A DNA stretch of 64,000 nt from a virus. Under the pieces are notes generated by a model that saw nothing but the letters and a program-made list of their open reading frames with translations, was not told the origin of the DNA and did not search any database. This document shows, piece by piece, positions 29,932 through 47,533 of the stretch (position 1 is its first letter; each line of letters begins with the position of its first letter). The position numbers and the translations under genes were made by a program. The stretch covers positions 29,765-93,764 of IMG/VR virus record IMGVR_UViG_3300035703_000044; one strand, 5' to 3'.

Positions 29932-30369
29932 ATGGACGAGTTATACCAGTCATTACACAAAGCACAAACAAGTCTTTTTTGTTTAATGCAAAAGACTTGG
30001 GTATATCATTGGAATGTGGTTGGTTCGGATTTCTTTGAACTTCATGAAGCATTTGGTGAACAATATACTACAATGCAAGGTGAACTAGATAGATTGACTG
30101 AACATATGAGATATCTTCGCATGAAAGCTATCTCACCAATCAGTAGAGTCATTGAAACATGCGAGATTCCAGAAGCATCATCAAACCCAACTGATAAATC
30201 TATGGTTTCTCAGTTGCTTGCAGACAATAAAAAGATGATTGAACTTCTCACTTCTGTTGTAGAAGAATCTGAAAAAACAAAACAATATACTACATCAAAT
30301 ATTGCTCAGGATTTAATTGAAACACATGGCAAATTTGTTTGGATGTTACGATCGTATTTGAAAGAATGA
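29932..30369 (+). CDS. Dps-like ferritin with intact ferroxidase site
   Basis: A 145-residue four-helix protein of the Dps/ferritin superfamily. The signature YHWNVVGSDFFELHEAFGEQY is followed by GELDRLTEH. The potential iron ligands H26, H38, D53 and E57 have the same spacing (12, 15, 4) as H51, H63, D78 and E82 of E. coli Dps. It may protect DNA or the photosynthetic host from iron and peroxide. A CATAAATA element lies upstream. It follows the tRNA cluster and overlaps the next gene by ATGA. Confidence 0.85.
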   Translation: MDELYQSLHKAQTSLFCLMQKTWVYHWNVVGSDFFELHEAFGEQYTTMQGELDRLTEHMRYLRMKAISPISRVIETCEIPEASSNPTDKSMVSQLLADNKKMIELLTSVVEESEKTKQYTTSNIAQDLIETHGKFVWMLRSYLKE

Positions 30370-39943: not shown

Positions 39944-40725
39944 ATTGTATATTGTACCTTGTTAGGTCTTCTGAGGAGGACTTGAATGATTTCAATAAAT
40001 CATTGTCTTTACTAGAAACTAACCTCATTCCATTTACAAAAGAGGTTGATCTAGTAGTTTTTTGTGAAGAATCATTCGAAGAGTATAAGTCAAAAGTAGA
40101 AACTGAACTTAATATAAAGTATCAACTAATTGAATTTGATGTTCCCGATTACCCAAAAGAAATTGTAGACAACATACCAGAATTTTTTCCACATCCAACT
40201 CATGGAAATGGTCCAGTTGCTTGGGGGCATCCTGGATTTTCTATGGGATATCGACATATGTGTAGATTTTTTTCTGGACAAATGTATAAGTTTGATATTC
40301 TCAAACAGTATGACTATTACTTAAGACTGGATACAGACTCTTTTATTCATACTTCACTCAACTATGATATTTTTGAATGGGCTAAAACTAATGATTGTTA
40401 TTATGGATTCATTGCACCAGCAGTTCAACAAGATAATGAGAAAGTCGTTGAAGGACTATGGGATTATGTAAACGAGGCATACCCAAATAATATTCCTGAC
40501 GGATTGATGTTTTATACAAACTTTGAGTTGGGCAAAACATCTTGGTTCTTGACAAGTGAGTACATGAACTTCTATAATTATATTGATAAGTGTGGTGGAA
40601 TTTATACTAAGAGGTGGGGAGATGCTCCTATTAAGTTTCTTGGTATTAATTTATTCATGAATCAAAAGAATATTATTCCAGTTCAAGGATTCACGTATCA
40701 ACATGGAGCAATCTATACAGTATAA
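39940..40725 (+). CDS. GT15-like (KRE2/KTR-type) mannosyltransferase
   Basis: A 261-residue protein. The blocks GYRHMCRFFSGQMYKFDIL, YDYYLRLDTDSFIH and YGFIAPA closely follow GT15 alpha-1,2-mannosyltransferases, a family best known from fungi. ATG 39940 is used rather than an upstream TTG. Its donor would be GDP-mannose, which links to the GDP-mannose epimerase at the operon start. Confidence 0.82.
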   Translation: MNCILYLVRSSEEDLNDFNKSLSLLETNLIPFTKEVDLVVFCEESFEEYKSKVETELNIKYQLIEFDVPDYPKEIVDNIPEFFPHPTHGNGPVAWGHPGFSMGYRHMCRFFSGQMYKFDILKQYDYYLRLDTDSFIHTSLNYDIFEWAKTNDCYYGFIAPAVQQDNEKVVEGLWDYVNEAYPNNIPDGLMFYTNFELGKTSWFLTSEYMNFYNYIDKCGGIYTKRWGDAPIKFLGINLFMNQKNIIPVQGFTYQHGAIYTV

Positions 40726-41522
40726 TGGATAAAAACAAGTCAACATATAAACTTAAAAACTTTGGTCCCATATACTATCTTAATCTTGACGGACAACCAG
40801 AAAGAAGAGAGTATATGGAGAACCAATTTAAGTATTGGGAAATTGAAAACTATACTCGCATTTCTGCATATGATGGTAGAGATGATGATTTGAGTGATAT
40901 TGTTAAGGGTAGATATCCTGAGATGATGACTTCTGGTGAGATTGGATGTGTAACTTCTCACCTTAAAGCCATTAAACATTGGTATGAAACATCTGATAGT
41001 CCTTATGCAGTCATCATGGAAGATGATTGTAATTTGGATTTAGTAAAGTATTGGAACTTCACTTGGGATGACTTCTACTGCAGAATCCCTTATGATTGGG
41101 ATGTTGTACAGATTGCAATTATCTGTACGGGCGATATTCATATCAAGATTCACAAAAGATTTGTCAATGAATTTTCCACTGCGTGTTACATCATCACAAG
41201 GCATCATGCAGAAAAACTTTTGAAACTTCATGTCCGTGGCGATAAGTATAAACTGGACAATGGTGTAAGACCCAGACCAGTTGCAGATGATTTAATCTAC
41301 AACGCTGGTAATACTTATAGTGTTCCTCTTCTTCTTTATAGAATTGAACTTGGATCTTCTATTCACCCAGAACACATTGATGCATTTCATCGTGGAAATT
41401 ATGATGGTCAAATGAACTTCTGGAGTCAAAAAGGTGCTCAATTGAGTGTTGAAGAACTAACTGACTATGATCCATACCTCGGAAGAGTAATTGAAAGTTC
41501 GGTAACTCCACCAAGTGCTTGA
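40725..41522 (+). CDS. GT25-like LPS glycosyltransferase
   Basis: A 265-residue protein of the glycosyltransferase family 25 pattern. It has IYYLNLDGQPERREYMENQF, GEIGCVTSHLKAIKHW, the metal-binding YAVIMEDDC, and STACYIITRHHAEKLL. GT25 enzymes add galactose-type sugars to LPS. It is the last gene of the glycan operon, which has no internal terminators. Confidence 0.87.
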   Translation: MDKNKSTYKLKNFGPIYYLNLDGQPERREYMENQFKYWEIENYTRISAYDGRDDDLSDIVKGRYPEMMTSGEIGCVTSHLKAIKHWYETSDSPYAVIMEDDCNLDLVKYWNFTWDDFYCRIPYDWDVVQIAIICTGDIHIKIHKRFVNEFSTACYIITRHHAEKLLKLHVRGDKYKLDNGVRPRPVADDLIYNAGNTYSVPLLLYRIELGSSIHPEHIDAFHRGNYDGQMNFWSQKGAQLSVEELTDYDPYLGRVIESSVTPPSA

Positions 41523-41547
41523 CACACCTTCAGTGATCCCTTATACT
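41519..41547 (+). promoter_or_regulatory. Promoter TTGACA-N17-TATACT for the porin gene
   Basis: The -35 overlaps the stop of the GT25-like gene, and the spacer is exactly 17 bases. The leader to the porin ATG is about 60 bases. Confidence 0.85.
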
Positions 41548-41611
41548 AAATAAGTACTTAAGAATTCTGTTGTAATTCTTAATCTTTGTCCTATAGTACA
41601 AACAACAATCT

Positions 41612-43075
41612 ATGAAACTCAAACAACTGATGCTTGCACCTGTTGCTCTGGGAATGGTTACTCCTGCTGCGATTGCCGCAGATCTTAATATGAACGGAGT
41701 GAACCAATATTCTTCGGAACAGGTCACAAGTGTCACCCAATTCTCTGATGTGCAACCCACCGACTGGGCATATCAAGCACTCTCGCAACTTGTGGAACGT
41801 TATGGTTGCGTTGCTGGTTATCCTAACGGTACTTTCCGTGGTGGTCGTGCAATGACTCGTTATGAGGCCGCAGCACTTCTGAATGCTTGCCTGGATCGTG
41901 TGACTGAAGTTACCGACGAACTTAAGCGTCTTACCAAAGAGTTTGCTGCTGAACTGGCAGTTCTCAAAGGTCGTGTGGATGGTCTGGAAGCACAAGTTAC
42001 CGAACTGGAAGCAACTCAGTTCTCTACCACTACCAAACTGCGTGGTGAAGCAAACTTTGTGCTTGGTGGTGTTGACGATTACCAGACCAAAGGTGGTGAT
42101 GTAACTCATACTGCATTCAACTACGATCTGCGTCTGAACCTGGATACTTCGTTTACTGGTGCTGATCTTCTCCGCACTCGTCTGCGTTCTGCTAACTTCA
42201 GCAGCAATCCTTTCGGTTCCAGTTCTTCCATCTTCAAACTGGATAAGGCAGATAACACCTCCGGTGCAAATGGCAACAACGTTGTTATCGACCGTTTGTA
42301 TTACCAGTTCCCTGTGTTTAACGGTAGTACCACTCTGACTGCTGGTGCTCTTGTTCGTAACACTGAGATTGCCTGGATTCCTACCGCATATAAGTCGAAC
42401 ATTCTTGACTTCTTCCAAGTAGCAGGTGCTCCTGGTGTGTATAACAAGGCAGTTGGTTCTGGTTTCGGTATTCAGTATGGAAACAAAGGTCTTGTTGCTG
42501 GTGTAAACTATGTGGCACAGAATGGTGATGATAGTTCTACTGGTGAGTTTGATCGTTCTGGTGCTTTGAATACCCTTGCACAAATCGGTTATCGTGGTGA
42601 TAACTGGGGTGCTGCTTTCGGTTATCGTTATGGTACTGAAGGCACCCGTGTTCGCACTTACAATGGTCTGAAAGGTGCTTCTGGTACTCTGGTTCCTGGT
42701 CAAACCTCTAACGGTTATGCACTGAATGCTTACTGGCAGCCCACTCAATCTGGTTGGGTTCCTTCAATCTCAGCAGGTTACGGTTGGAACACTGTAAGTG
42801 GTACTCCTAGTGCTGCTACTAATAGTCAGTCCTGGTTTGCTGGTCTGACTTGGGAAGATGTATTTGTTGATGGTAACTCTGCTGGCGTTGCTATCGGTCA
42901 GGCACCTACTGGTGAGAACCTTGAGAAGTCTACCATGCTTGAGATCTTCTATAAGTATCAAGTCTCTGATAACATCAGTGTCACTCCTGCTATCATCTAC
43001 GGTAGTGACAACCAACGTCTTGTTGGCAACTCTTCCAATTGGGGCGGCGTGATCCAAACTACGTTCAAGTTCTGA
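41612..43075 (+). CDS. Cyanobacterial outer-membrane porin (SLH + OprB-type)
   Basis: A 487-residue porin of the Som/iron-uptake-porin type of cyanobacteria. A signal peptide (about residues 1-23, ending AAIAA) is followed by an SLH domain (FSDVQPTDWAYQALSQL ... MTRYEAAALLNACL), a short coiled coil (about 108-142) and a beta-barrel ending in a C-terminal Phe, as in outer-membrane proteins. Its codon use and GC are richer than the flanking genes, suggesting recent acquisition from a host and strong expression. A consensus promoter precedes it and a terminator follows. Confidence 0.9.
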   Translation: MKLKQLMLAPVALGMVTPAAIAADLNMNGVNQYSSEQVTSVTQFSDVQPTDWAYQALSQLVERYGCVAGYPNGTFRGGRAMTRYEAAALLNACLDRVTEVTDELKRLTKEFAAELAVLKGRVDGLEAQVTELEATQFSTTTKLRGEANFVLGGVDDYQTKGGDVTHTAFNYDLRLNLDTSFTGADLLRTRLRSANFSSNPFGSSSSIFKLDKADNTSGANGNNVVIDRLYYQFPVFNGSTTLTAGALVRNTEIAWIPTAYKSNILDFFQVAGAPGVYNKAVGSGFGIQYGNKGLVAGVNYVAQNGDDSSTGEFDRSGALNTLAQIGYRGDNWGAAFGYRYGTEGTRVRTYNGLKGASGTLVPGQTSNGYALNAYWQPTQSGWVPSISAGYGWNTVSGTPSAATNSQSWFAGLTWEDVFVDGNSAGVAIGQAPTGENLEKSTMLEIFYKYQVSDNISVTPAIIYGSDNQRLVGNSSNWGGVIQTTFKF

Positions 43076-43103
43076 TAAGTCAGAGAATCTAAACAAAACC
43101 TAA

Positions 43104-43130
43104 AGAGGGTCTTGACAGACCCTCTTTTTT
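43104..43130 (+). terminator. Terminator after porin, with the hli -35 in its loop
   Basis: A 9-bp stem AGAGGGTCT / AGACCCTCT with loop TGAC and a T run. Confidence 0.88.
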
Positions 43131-43140
43131 CATATATACT
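43112..43140 (+). promoter_or_regulatory. Promoter TTGACA-N17-TATACT for hli
   Basis: TTGACA at 43112-43117 spans the loop of the terminator hairpin. TATACT is at 43135-43140, a 17-base spacer. Confidence 0.85.
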
Positions 43141-43166: not shown

Positions 43167-43376
43167 ATGACTGTTACAAAAAATGAGTTTGGGCAAATGA
43201 ATATGTTTGCTAAAGAACCTTCGATGTATATGACCAAGGAAGACCTTGAACGTTATGGTATCGAACCTTATGCTGAAAAGGCGGAGAAAATGAATGGACG
43301 TTGGGCTATGGTCGGTATTGTTGCTGGGGTTATTTCTTATGCTCTCACTGGTAAACTCTTCTTCGGCGTCTTCTGA
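43167..43376 (+). CDS. hli: High-light-inducible protein (Hli)
   Basis: A 69-residue single-helix chlorophyll-binding protein. The signature AEKMNGRWAMVGIVAGVISYALTG contains the ExxNGRxAM chlorophyll-binding motif. Hli proteins protect photosystems from excess light and are host-derived in cyanophages. It overlaps the next ORF by TGATG. Confidence 0.96.
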   Translation: MTVTKNEFGQMNMFAKEPSMYMTKEDLERYGIEPYAEKAEKMNGRWAMVGIVAGVISYALTGKLFFGVF

Positions 43377-43773: not shown

Positions 43774-43877
43774 ATGAAAGAGCTGAGCGTATTAATGGTT
43801 GGGCAGCAATGATTGGTATTGTTGCCGCAATGGGTTCTTATGCCCTGACTGGGCAGATTATTCCGGGTATTTGGTGA
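43770..43877 (+). CDS. hli: Second, minimal Hli protein (35 aa)
   Basis: A 35-residue ORF, MNERAERINGWAAMIGIVAA then MGSYALTGQIIPGIW. It keeps the ERxNGxxAMxGxxA chlorophyll-binding helix of Hli proteins with almost nothing else. The RBS AAGGAG lies upstream. It ends overlapping the in-frame upstream ATG of the peroxiredoxin. Confidence 0.85.
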   Translation: MNERAERINGWAAMIGIVAAMGSYALTGQIIPGIW

Positions 43878-43888
43878 TGGAGGTTACT

Positions 43889-44416
43889 ATGCGTAAAGAA
43901 CAGTATGAAGTTCCCCAAGTACAATTTGTATTTCGTGAGAATGGAGAGTTTGTGATTCGTACTACTTCAGAACTTTTCGATAAAAAACGTGTGGTCATTT
44001 TTAGCCTGCCTGGTGCTTTCACTCCTACTTGCAGTGCCTATCAGTTACCTGGATTTGAAGAGAAATACGAAGACTTTATTGGTAGTGGCATCGACGCTAT
44101 TTACTGCATCTCTGTTAATGATGGGTTTGTGATGAATGCCTGGGCACAAGACCAAAACATCAAGAATGTCCAACTCATTCCTGATGGTAATGCATACTTT
44201 ACACGTTCTATGGGACAACTTGTGATGAAGTCTAATCTTGGTTTTGGTGAACGTTCCTGGAGATATGCTGCAGTTGTAGATAAGGGTATTATCGAAAAAC
44301 TTTTTGAAGAACCTGGTAAATCGGATAATGCATCTGATGATCCTTATGGAGAAACAACTCCAGAAAAAGTTTTGGAGTATGTGAAATCTACAGCACGCGA
44401 AACAGTTGCTGCTTGA
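43889..44416 (+). CDS. Peroxiredoxin (Prx5/AhpC-TSA type)
   Basis: A 175-residue peroxiredoxin. The peroxidatic cysteine is C48 in PGAFTPTCSAY (PxxxTxxC). The active-site arginine is likely in SWRYAAVV. It reduces H2O2 and alkyl hydroperoxides, with glutaredoxin or thioredoxin as reductant. A glutaredoxin is encoded at 47.7 kb. The ATG at 43889 has GGAGG just upstream. It closes the hli/photoprotection operon. Confidence 0.88.
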   Translation: MRKEQYEVPQVQFVFRENGEFVIRTTSELFDKKRVVIFSLPGAFTPTCSAYQLPGFEEKYEDFIGSGIDAIYCISVNDGFVMNAWAQDQNIKNVQLIPDGNAYFTRSMGQLVMKSNLGFGERSWRYAAVVDKGIIEKLFEEPGKSDNASDDPYGETTPEKVLEYVKSTARETVAA

Positions 44417-44421
44417 TTGGT

Positions 44422-44445
44422 GGAGGGATAAAACCCTCCTTTTTT
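44422..44445 (+). terminator. Terminator after peroxiredoxin
   Basis: GGAGGG-ATAAAA-CCCTCC and six T. A near-late promoter CATAAATA (44446-44453) follows. Confidence 0.85.
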
Positions 44446-44476
44446 CATAAATATATCGCAGGGTTTGGATGCAATA

Positions 44477-45175
44477 ATGTTCATAGATCTTCATAACTTT
44501 TTCAAGTTTTACGACGAGAAAAATCCAAAGCACGTTGCTGCAGTTGAACAACTTGAAAAAGATTTGCAATTGAAGTCTCAGGATCTGTTGGAAGATGAAT
44601 CAAATTGGGTAAGAATCTATAGAACTAAACAAGACAAACCTCAATCATCAATTTTACCCGTTCCTTTCTATCCACAAACAGACAACTATAGGGATGCAAA
44701 TAGAACTTGTAACTCTTCTGCTTGTGCAATGTGCCTTGAGTATTTCAAACCTGGTACACTAAAAGGACCTAAGGGCGATGACGCCTATGTACAAAAAGTT
44801 TTCTCAATCGGTGACACAACTGATCACTTGGTTCAGACCAAGGTTCTTGCGTCATACGGCATTAAATCCAGTTTTTCCTACAGTCTTACTTTTGCTGATC
44901 TTGATAGAGAGCTTGCCTCTGGTAGACCTGTTGTTATTGGTATTCTTCATCGCGGTCCTCTATCTAACCCCACAGGAGGGCACATGGTAGTAGTGATCGG
45001 CAAAACTCCATCTGGCGATTATGTTGTCAATGATCCATATGGTTCATTGAATGATGGGTACACTGGTTCAGTTAATAATGGAAAGGGTGCTGTTTATAAG
45101 AGAAGTGATCTATCTCGCAGATGGGTGCCAAAAGGAAATGATGGTTGGGGTAGAATCTTTGATGCAAAAAAGTAG
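44477..45175 (+). CDS. C39-like cysteine peptidase (endolysin N-terminal module)
   Basis: A 232-residue peptidase_C39_2-type domain. The catalytic Cys is C78 in NRTCNSSACAMC, His is H169 in GGHMVVVIG, and Asp is D186 in NDPYG. The zero frame stops at TAG 45173-45175 right after a run of six A. A GH24 lysozyme is encoded immediately downstream in the -1 frame with no start codon of its own, so this gene probably yields both a short peptidase and a frameshifted two-domain endolysin. Confidence 0.82.
   Translation: MFIDLHNFFKFYDEKNPKHVAAVEQLEKDLQLKSQDLLEDESNWVRIYRTKQDKPQSSILPVPFYPQTDNYRDANRTCNSSACAMCLEYFKPGTLKGPKGDDAYVQKVFSIGDTTDHLVQTKVLASYGIKSSFSYSLTFADLDRELASGRPVVIGILHRGPLSNPTGGHMVVVIGKTPSGDYVVNDPYGSLNDGYTGSVNNGKGAVYKRSDLSRRWVPKGNDGWGRIFDAKK
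45166..45172 (+). promoter_or_regulatory. Putative -1 frameshift site (A AAA AAG)
   Basis: The canonical slippery heptamer A AAA AAG is in the correct zero-frame phase (codons AAA AAG, then TAG). A 7-base spacer separates it from a 9-bp hairpin at 45180-45207. A -1 slip bypasses the TAG and enters the lysozyme frame. Confidence 0.78.
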
Positions 45176-45651
45176 AAACGCCAACTAATAATATTTCTTT
45201 AGTTGGCATTGATTTGATAAAAGAGTTTGAAGGGTGTCATCTAAATGCTTATCCTGACCCATTGACTGGCAAAGAACCAATAACTATTGGTTGGGGAAGT
45301 ACTAAGGATTTCAATGGACAACCATTTAGACTTGGTAAAAGAATTACTCAAGAGTATGCTGATAAACTTTTGATTTTTGATATCGAACAAAGATTTATTC
45401 CTTCTCTACAAAAAATACCTTATTGGGGTGAGATGAATGACAACCAAAGAGGGGCTTTACTTTCTTTTGCTTATAATCTTGGTGCAGGTTTTTATGGTGG
45501 TAGCAACTTCAATACTATTACGAGGGTCTTGAAGAACAAGGAATGGGACAAAGTTCCTGATGCTCTTTATCTTTATCGTAATCCAGGAACTAAAGTAGAA
45601 ACAGGTCTTGCTCGTAGACGGAAGGCAGAAGGAAAACTTTGGTCTTCTTAA
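45172..45651 (+). CDS. GH24 lysozyme (endolysin C-terminal module, read after -1 frameshift)
   Basis: The -1 frame from 45172 encodes 159 residues. The lysozyme domain starts at NISLVGIDLIKEFEG, matching the GH24 N-terminus. The catalytic Glu is in FEG and an Asp is nine residues later (NAYPD), as in T4 lysozyme, with a late GLARRRKAEGKLW. No ATG/GTG/TTG occurs before the TTG at 45214, which lies inside the conserved domain. Frameshifting from the peptidase is the best explanation. The fusion would be about 391 residues. Confidence 0.78.
   Translation, partial: VETPTNNISLVGIDLIKEFEGCHLNAYPDPLTGKEPITIGWGSTKDFNGQPFRLGKRITQEYADKLLIFDIEQRFIPSLQKIPYWGEMNDNQRGALLSFAYNLGAGFYGGSNFNTITRVLKNKEWDKVPDALYLYRNPGTKVETGLARRRKAEGKLWSS
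45180..45207 (+). other. Stem-loop stimulating the putative -1 frameshift
   Basis: GCCAACTAA (45180-45188) pairs perfectly with TTAGTTGGC (45199-45207) around a 10-base loop. No U tract follows, so it is not a terminator. Confidence 0.78.
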
Positions 45652-46260: not shown

Positions 46261-46289
46261 TTGACAGGGTTTCAAAACAATGTTATGAT
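46261..46289 (+). promoter_or_regulatory. Promoter TTGACA-N17-TATGAT for psbA
   Basis: An exact -35 and a 5/6 -10 with a 17-base spacer. It precedes a 160-base structured leader. Confidence 0.8.
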
Positions 46290-46327
46290 AAATACATCAA
46301 CACGTTAAGGAATGTTACAGTTCTTTA

Positions 46328-46429
46328 ATGTTTGCAACTCCCGTTAACCGAGACCTATGGGAGTATAAGAACGTCTCTCATATCCCCGCTGAGGGTGCGG
46401 GGAGCATAGTAACTCCACCATTTCCCTGA
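46328..46429 (+). other. psbA leader with possible 33-aa upstream ORF and GC hairpin
   Basis: An ATG-TGA frame encodes 33 residues (MFATPVNRDLWEYKNVSHIP, then AEGAGSIVTPPFP). A perfect hairpin CCCCGC / GCGGGG (46384-46402) lies within it. It may be a conserved psbA leader RNA or a small gene. It ends 24 bases before psbA. Confidence 0.45.
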
Positions 46430-46453
46430 TGGTCTTACTAACTGTCTAAAAAA

Positions 46454-47533
46454 ATGACTGCTACAATTTCACAACAACGACAATCGAATACTTGGGAACA
46501 GTTTTGCAACTGGGTTACTTCTACCGATAATCGTCTTTATGTCGGTTGGTTCGGAGTCTTGATGATTCCTTGTCTGCTTGCTGCTACGACTTGTTTCATC
46601 ATCGCCTTCATCGGTGCTCCCCCTGTGGACATTGATGGAATTCGTGAACCTGTTTCTGGTTCTCTTATGTGGGGTAACAACATCATCTCTGGTGCTGTTG
46701 TTCCTTCGTCTAATGCTATTGGACTGCACTTTTACCCCATCTGGGAAGCTGCCTCTCTTGATGAGTGGCTATATAATGGTGGACCTTTCCAACTGGTCGT
46801 CTTCCATTTTCTGATTGGTATCTATGCTTACATGGGCCGCGAATGGGAACTTTCTTACCGACTCGGTATGCGTCCTTGGATTTGTGTTGCCTACTCTGCA
46901 CCCGTTGCTGCTGCTAGCGCAGTTTTTCTGGTCTATCCCTTCGGTCAAGGATCCTTCTCTGATGCGATGCCTCTGGGGATTTCGGGAACTTTCAACTACA
47001 TGCTTGTTTTCCAGGCAGAACACAACATTCTCATGCATCCTTTCCACATGTTGGGAGTTGCTGGTGTCTTCGGTGGTTCTCTTTTCTCTGCTATGCATGG
47101 ATCTCTTGTCACCTCTTCTCTCGTCCGTGAGACGACAGAGAATGAGTCACAGAACTATGGATACAAGTTCGGACAAGAAGAAGAGACCTACAACATTGTA
47201 GCTGCTCATGGTTACTTTGGTCGTCTGATCTTCCAATACGCATCGTTCAACAACTCACGTTCATTGCACTTCTTCCTTGCTGCGTGGCCTGTAGTTGGTA
47301 TCTGGTTTGCTGCCTTGGGCGTTTCAACAATGGCGTTCAACCTCAACGGATTCAACTTCAACCAGTCTCTTCTTGATAGTCAGCACCGTGTCATCAACAC
47401 TTGGGCAGACATCCTCAACCGTGCTAACCTCGGTTTTGAGGTGATGCACGAGCGCAATGCTCACAACTTCCCTCTCGATCTTGCATCAGTTGAAGCAACT
47501 CCTGTTGCCTTGACTGCTCCAACTATCGGTTGA
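46454..47533 (+). CDS. psbA: Photosystem II D1 protein
   Basis: A 359-residue D1 with five transmembrane helices. The Tyr-Z/His and Mn-ligand segments are present ([21 protein letters not shown]). The protein ends in [18 protein letters not shown], with Ala344-type processing expected. Residue 130 is Glu (YMGREWEL), the form linked to high-light D1 in cyanobacteria. Phage D1 replaces damaged host D1 during infection. The gene is intron-less and richer in GC than its neighbours. Confidence 0.98.

Follow-up and report, generated by a model that had tools for sequence, protein, structure and literature searches.

Why should a cyanophage carry the gene for an outer-membrane porin, and what would the protein do in an infected cell? 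The question is raised by a 64,000-nucleotide stretch of DNA (the window) taken from a 93.8-kb IMG/VR contig, a record that is probably incomplete. A gp43-like DNA polymerase, UvsX, NrdA/NrdB and a baseplate tail-tube-cap protein, all T4-like, are encoded in the window together with ten tRNA genes and psbA, which has the PhotoRC-II RNA ahead of it; based on this gene content, the source was identified as a T4-like cyanophage. The porin gene and its immediate surroundings comprise the following features:

40725..41522, + strand: family-25 glycosyltransferase gene, upstream neighbour of the porin and last of a run of glycan genes (family match)
41519..41547, + strand: sigma-70 consensus promoter TTGACA-N17-TATACT, 64 nt before the porin ATG, conserved in phage relatives
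41612..43075, + strand: SLH-OprB porin gene, 487 aa, ATG to TGA (open reading frame, domain matches and predicted model)
43102..43127, + strand: intrinsic terminator directly after the porin, an 11-pair stem (AAAGAGGGTCT/AGACCCTCTTT) followed by a T run
43112..43140, + strand: consensus promoter TTGACA-17-TATACT of the hli-like gene, overlapping the porin terminator
43167..43376, + strand: hli-like gene, downstream neighbour of the porin (chlorophyll a/b-binding family, weak match)

The porin gene and its predicted product

The initial annotation had read 41612–43075 as a complete host-type SLH-OprB porin. Its coordinates match those of the open reading frame, whose product ends in ...QTTFKF, and the identification was borne out by profile searches. 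Pfam SLH (residues 44–87, 37 bits) and Pfam OprB (residues 103–464, 54 bits) both scored above their cut-offs, and the NCBIfam model NF033921 (por_somb, "iron uptake porin") was matched over its full length (1–485 of 485) with a score of 295 bits (cut-off, 100). A terminal Phe is present in every complete phage copy. The product is an intact cyanobacterial SLH-OprB (Som/NF033921) porin. Its N-terminus (MKLKQLMLAPVALGMVTPAAIAA) has the look of a signal peptide, judged by eye only, with an n-region, a hydrophobic stretch and an AxA-like site; the putative peptide spans residues 1–24. In a PHROGs profile search with the porin, no phage family was found below E 0.18, and no structural (tail or adsorption) family was matched. 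A 385-aa open reading frame on the minus strand (41591–42748), which overlaps the gene, was rejected as a by-product of the porin reading frame, because it is the + frame that carries the domain matches and the purifying selection.

For structural characterization, an AlphaFold2 model was generated from an alignment of 66 phage and host relatives, with S-SRM01 left out. Mean pLDDT was 79, with values mostly of 80–97 in the barrel and low confidence in the SLH region and signal peptide. A long helix, corresponding to a coiled coil, occupies about residues 83–136, and 16 strands lie within residues 140–486. Taken together with the Pfam matches, the predicted domain order is SLH, coiled coil and barrel, the SLH part of the model being of low confidence. 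Structure comparison of the barrel returned OprB (4gey, Z 25.9), the anion porin Omp32 (Z 23.5), the phosphate porins OprO/OprP (Z 22.6–22.9) and OmpM1 (Z 21); as far as the model goes, this likeness is that of a common fold and says nothing about substrate. Anion selectivity inferred from the net charge of the barrel was also considered and rejected: charge does not track the presence of pstS, and host values range from −21 to +17. OmpM1 of Veillonella parvula (8BYM) likewise combines an SLH domain, a coiled-coil stalk and a 16-strand barrel, and its SLH and stalk could be matched by sequence. It differs in that it comes from another phylum and is only ~15% identical; trimer formation and tethering have been demonstrated for OmpM1, whereas the phage porin is known from sequence and model.

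The consensus promoter that the initial annotation had placed over the porin was confirmed, and its −35 element shares bases with the stop codon of the glycosyltransferase gene upstream. Of the 144 dereplicated phage porins whose upstream sequence was long enough, 93 have a promoter with at least 10 of 12 matches, compared with 5.8% of shuffles, and these promoters mostly lie 50–100 nt from the start codon; host porins showed no promoter excess of this kind. Terminator-like hairpins follow 93 of 154 phage porin copies. With a promoter and a terminator of its own, the gene probably forms a transcription unit by itself, read by host-type RNA polymerase. No structured leader was detected 5' of the porin (z = 0.13), and the only Rfam family found over the region was PhotoRC-II. 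This RNA (46325–46417) lies in the leader of psbA, which occupies 46261–47533 with a promoter TTGACA-17-TATGAT. At 43102–43140, the −35 element of the hli-like gene promoter falls inside the stem-loop of the porin terminator.

Codons ending in G or C had been described as more frequent in the porin than in the flanking glycan genes. As an observation this stands (GC3 of 0.37 against 0.19–0.28), but it does not serve as a mark of host origin. The value is matched or exceeded by nrdA (0.37), ORF 54392 (0.40) and psbA (0.45); the porin does not stand out among them and gives no sign of recent transfer. Codon positions 1 and 2, and hence protein composition, account for most of its high GC. Recent transfer from a host was rejected on the basis of this phage-range GC3 and of membership in one old phage clade, described below.

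Relatives among phages and picocyanobacteria

Among 50,697 phage records, a full-length relative was found in one only, Synechococcus phage S-SRM01, an isolate from a freshwater reservoir, whose gp283 (NC_070963.1) is annotated "porin" and is 71–73% identical. It is a single copy and belongs to the same clade, but the locus differs from that of the window: Dps lies downstream of the porin, the glycan genes are further off, and pstS is absent from the complete genome. The porin is not mentioned in the S-SRM01 paper (PMC8557907).

In the same search, S-PM2 and S-CREM1 had only the SLH part in common with the porin. Their proteins, a "putative S-layer protein" (S-PM2, L003:4932-5771) and an "iron uptake porin" (S-CREM1, L002:5935-6813), are 41–60% identical over about 90–110 aa of the SLH region but only about 280–292 aa long, with a much smaller C-terminal part. 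They are not porins of the window type and make up a separate SLH family of their own in cyanophages. Two phage porins (L069:158-1618 and L079:1281-2741) carry another signal peptide, like that of these small SLH proteins, a difference that suggests recombination at the 5' end.

Searches of IMG/VR with two queries returned 178 and at least 400 related stretches, counts that are redundant and include fragments. The 160 full-length phage copies are at least 64.5% identical among themselves. Of 16 long phage records, 15 have a single porin and the remaining one has two; two porin genes ~15 kb apart were observed on a single phage contig of 87,628 bases (L206 and L221).

On the host side, an exact peptide-pattern search of 84,980 species genomes yielded no close copy, and an alignment-based search recovered picocyanobacterial porins at no more than 57% identity. 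Two of the contigs with cyanobacterial porins (L110 and L126) came from bins labelled "Bifidobacterium breve", which are probably mislabelled or contaminated. Host porins linked to pstS were then sought in 20 picocyanobacterial genomes. Five of these, of freshwater type, have a porin gene as the immediate upstream, co-oriented neighbour of pstS, and these five porins are 50–60% identical to that of the window (four of them at 56–60%).

Phage porins formed one clade, with support of 99 (SH-aLRT) in a tree of 112 rows and 100/100 in a more careful tree of 79 rows; the sample for these trees was drawn without marine Synechococcus porins and without PMM0709 of Prochlorococcus MED4. The five pstS-linked host porins, together with another porin encoded at the end of a contig, also formed a clade (100/99), which joins the phage clade and one Cyanobium porin at a node of 94/92, support that is good but not overwhelming. 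Within this group the placement of one host porin (L085_h0) is weak (93/62). The remaining 53 picocyanobacterial porins, the sampled Prochlorococcus porins among them, fall on the opposite side (99/96).

By its placement in these trees, the window's porin comes from one old phage-only clade. Such a clade, deep and containing tail proteins, was the outcome named in the initial annotation as speaking against a host-type porin; the clade does consist of phage sequences alone, yet these are porins, and host porins form its sister group. The phage porin probably derives from, or has common ancestry with, the freshwater Cyanobium/Synechococcus subgroup encoded directly upstream of pstS. Members of that subgroup, such as the porin of Synechococcus sp. 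GFB01 (L086_h0), have the same predicted fold and domain order as the phage copies, and pstS stands directly downstream in these hosts and in many phages. Phage copies differ from them in their own consensus promoter, which replaces the host one, in diverged loops and in the frequent lack of pstS.

Linkage to pstS and a phosphate reading

In phage relatives, the neighbour of the porin is a phosphate-binding-type protein (Pfam PF12849, 144 bits), taken as PstS. Of 133 dereplicated phage loci, 46 have its gene in one of the three positions following the porin, and no copy was found elsewhere in the flanks covered. The rate is alike in two genomic settings, one resembling the window, with hli, peroxiredoxin, C39 and lysozyme genes (27 of 72 loci), and one with Dps (18 of 50). 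The order glycosyltransferase–porin–hli, which the initial annotation had taken for an envelope and energy module, is thus only one of at least two settings and is not fixed; in many relatives, pstS stands between the porin and the hli-like gene. In the reverse test, among the 64 phage pstS loci with enough upstream sequence, a porin lies within 1.2 kb upstream in 54, slightly further away in 9 and is missing in 1. Of 15 long IMG/VR records (87–284 kb), 6 were without pstS; in each of the other 9 it follows the porin at a distance of no more than 1.4 kb.

At roughly two in three phage loci the porin has no pstS next to it, and this holds for the window, in which the hli-like gene comes next and no PF12849 match could be found over the 93.8-kb record. 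On the porin tree the presence of pstS changes 34 times, so pstS comes and goes quickly and the porin stays. In one locus (G025:C1:215550-216513), the phage pstS beside the porin is broken across two frames, which may reflect decay of this copy or an error in sequencing. Phage PstS proteins from these loci form one clade (98 SH-aLRT), separate from the sampled host PstS. In isolated cyanophages, pstS occurs without conserved synteny (PMC10976474), and the linkage to a porin therefore appears to be new.

Near-perfect tandem Pho-box pairs (at least 15/16) were predicted before 12 of 47 dereplicated phage pstS genes (0.9% of shuffles) and before 5 of 144 phage porins (0.4% of shuffles). In several phage porin promoters, the predicted Pho box, of the form CTTAACC(A/T)NNNCTTAATTGACA, runs into the −35 element (CTTAACCAAATCTTAATTGACA-17-TAAGAT). 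The window's porin promoter has no Pho box, and none was detected upstream of the five freshwater host porins; host Pho boxes lie before pstS in several genomes. Predicted phage Pho boxes have been described as unreliable without binding tests (PMC10976474).

Nutrient uptake was one of three roles suggested in the initial annotation, and it alone has gained evidence, through the linkage to pstS in phage relatives and nearest hosts. As the porin comes from a branch encoded beside a host phosphate-capture gene, the virus probably keeps phosphate entering the infected cell. We consider it likely that the protein is a viral PhoE-like porin that sustains entry of phosphate or other nutrients across the outer membrane during infection. 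After infection, host RNA polymerase would transcribe the gene alone from its strong sigma-70-type promoter; the protein would be exported and inserted in the outer membrane, with the SLH domain and coiled coil tethering it to peptidoglycan as in OmpM (PMC10628300). The barrel would then add hydrophilic channels, sustaining or raising the entry of phosphate, and probably of other small ions too, while host expression shuts down. The phage need met in this way would be phosphorus for DNA. Many sister phages carry the gene for the next step, PstS, directly downstream, and the phage of the window, with a porin-only record, would rely on host PstS. The window copy has no pstS partner, and a phosphate role for this particular phage therefore rests on its relatives.

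Published work on hosts and phages is consistent with this reading. Porin PMM0709 (phoE) of Prochlorococcus MED4 is 10–700-fold up under phosphorus starvation and is numbered beside pstS, PMM0710 (PMC5451487, PMC1906773), and phosphate entry has been proposed as its function (PMC5451487). It serves here as a functional comparison only; it stands outside the tree, and the sampled Prochlorococcus porins belong to the other Som group. For Synechococcus, outer-membrane porins have been suggested to limit Pi entry (PMC7250820), and phages with pstS escape the delay in lysis seen in phosphorus-depleted hosts (PMC10976474). Against the phosphate reading count the lack of pstS and of a Pho box in the window, the lack of pstS in S-SRM01 and at most other phage loci, a barrel charge that does not follow pstS, the moderate strength of the 94/92 node, the family name "iron uptake porin", a Dps/ferritin gene nearby in half of the loci of one setting, and the link of the Synechocystis homologue Slr1908 to iron uptake.

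A wider reading, towards which we lean slightly, is that porin and PstS constitute a two-step phosphate-capture cassette that came from freshwater picocyanobacteria and is carried by a widespread group of T4-like cyanophages, sometimes under host Pho control. The cassette would move between genomic places and often lose PstS, so that viruses remodel the nutrient permeability of the outer membrane; the window would hold the porin-only version.

Alternative roles and known systems

The strongest alternative is general maintenance of the outer membrane, whereby a phage copy stands in for the bulk Som porin and its peptidoglycan tether as host synthesis stops; overall permeability and an intact envelope would be kept up to the point of lysis, and phosphate would play no particular part. 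That the porin occurs with no pstS at most loci, as it does in S-SRM01, would fit, as would the SLH domain being the best conserved between phage and host (identity of 0.79–0.81). Precedents also exist: homologous OmpM is both tether and nutrient channel (PMC10628300), and SLH/OprB proteins of Synechocystis affect outer-membrane stability and vesiculation (PMC8707739). What maintenance leaves unexplained is why the phage porins group with pstS-linked host porins and not with the more numerous other Som porins, and why pstS, where present, adjoins the porin (63 of 64 loci; 9 of 9 long records). We regard it as unlikely, though deserving of some weight.

Entry of iron or another metal into infected cells is a less probable role for the porin. 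Besides the NF033921 name, it draws on the report of Slr1908 as an iron-selective porin and on Dps and ferredoxin genes, found within five genes downstream of the porin in 65 and 50 of 189 loci, respectively. The family name, however, derives from distant relatives. Dps is confined to one setting and follows also when pstS intervenes, and in hosts as in both phage settings it is pstS, and no gene for an iron-binding protein, that keeps close to the porin. A ferritin/Dps-like open reading frame is present in the window at 30016–30369, far from the porin; in many relatives, Dps follows the porin.

Phage-encoded porins with a role in receptor change or exclusion are known from lambdoid phages, and the initial annotation had named replacement of a phage receptor, to exclude superinfection, among the possible roles. 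On this view a host porin used as receptor would be displaced or masked by the phage porin, whose surface loops differ. Its strong sigma-70 promoter would fit early action, and its extracellular loops except L3 are far from those of the nearest hosts (identity of 0.1–0.4, compared with 0.66 for the constriction loop L3). Host porins, however, diverge equally from one another in the same loops (0.06–0.33). In the window's porin clade, dN/dS was 0.15 overall, 0.10 in the strands, 0.16 in L3, 0.16 in the other loops and 0.17 in SLH plus coil. The loops are under purifying selection, with no sign of an arms race. In the absence of loop-specific diversification the sequences do not support receptor replacement; in addition, literature evidence for porins as receptors of these phages was not found, and the linkage to pstS would go unexplained. 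This role is accordingly judged highly improbable. Host contamination, or a recently captured and decaying passenger, was suggested by a host-type protein within a metagenomic viral record but is refuted in practice by the isolate genome of S-SRM01 and by selection (dN/dS of 0.15), along with the related stretches, 400 or more, found across viral contigs, the single porin in 15 of 16 long records (two in the other), the conserved promoter and the T4-like core genes in the same window.

Metabolic genes carried by phages are known to serve photosynthesis and the periplasmic and enzymatic steps of phosphate acquisition (psbA, pstS, phoA). Marine cyanophages such as P-SSM2 and S-SM1 likewise carry pstS/phoA with control of the Pho-box type, but they have no porin of the window kind, and their PstS is of another lineage, with no more than 58.5% identity to the phage PstS described here. 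A full-text literature search found no paper on a phage porin with pstS as freshwater auxiliary metabolic genes. The fold, the family, phage phosphate genes and the "porin" annotation of one isolate, S-SRM01, are already known; apparently new are the phage-wide porin clade, the placement of that clade with pstS-linked host porins, and the porin–pstS cassette. In the literature searched, the outer membrane was not known as a viral target, and it is a proposed limit to phosphate entry in picocyanobacteria (PMC7250820). A porin found across hundreds of viral contigs, often beside pstS and with pstS-linked host kin, makes viral control of outer-membrane nutrient permeability a testable question, for which S-SRM01 is a usable isolate.

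Two further observations concern the neighbourhood of the porin. Consecutive genes for a peroxiredoxin, a C39-type peptidase and a phage lysozyme occupy 43799–45651, and the C39/lysozyme pair recurs near other phage porins and in S-SRM01, where there are two endolysin genes. Within the glycan run, 39925–40725 matches Glyco_transf_15 (120 bits), a fungal-type alpha-mannosyltransferase family that is unusual in a phage.
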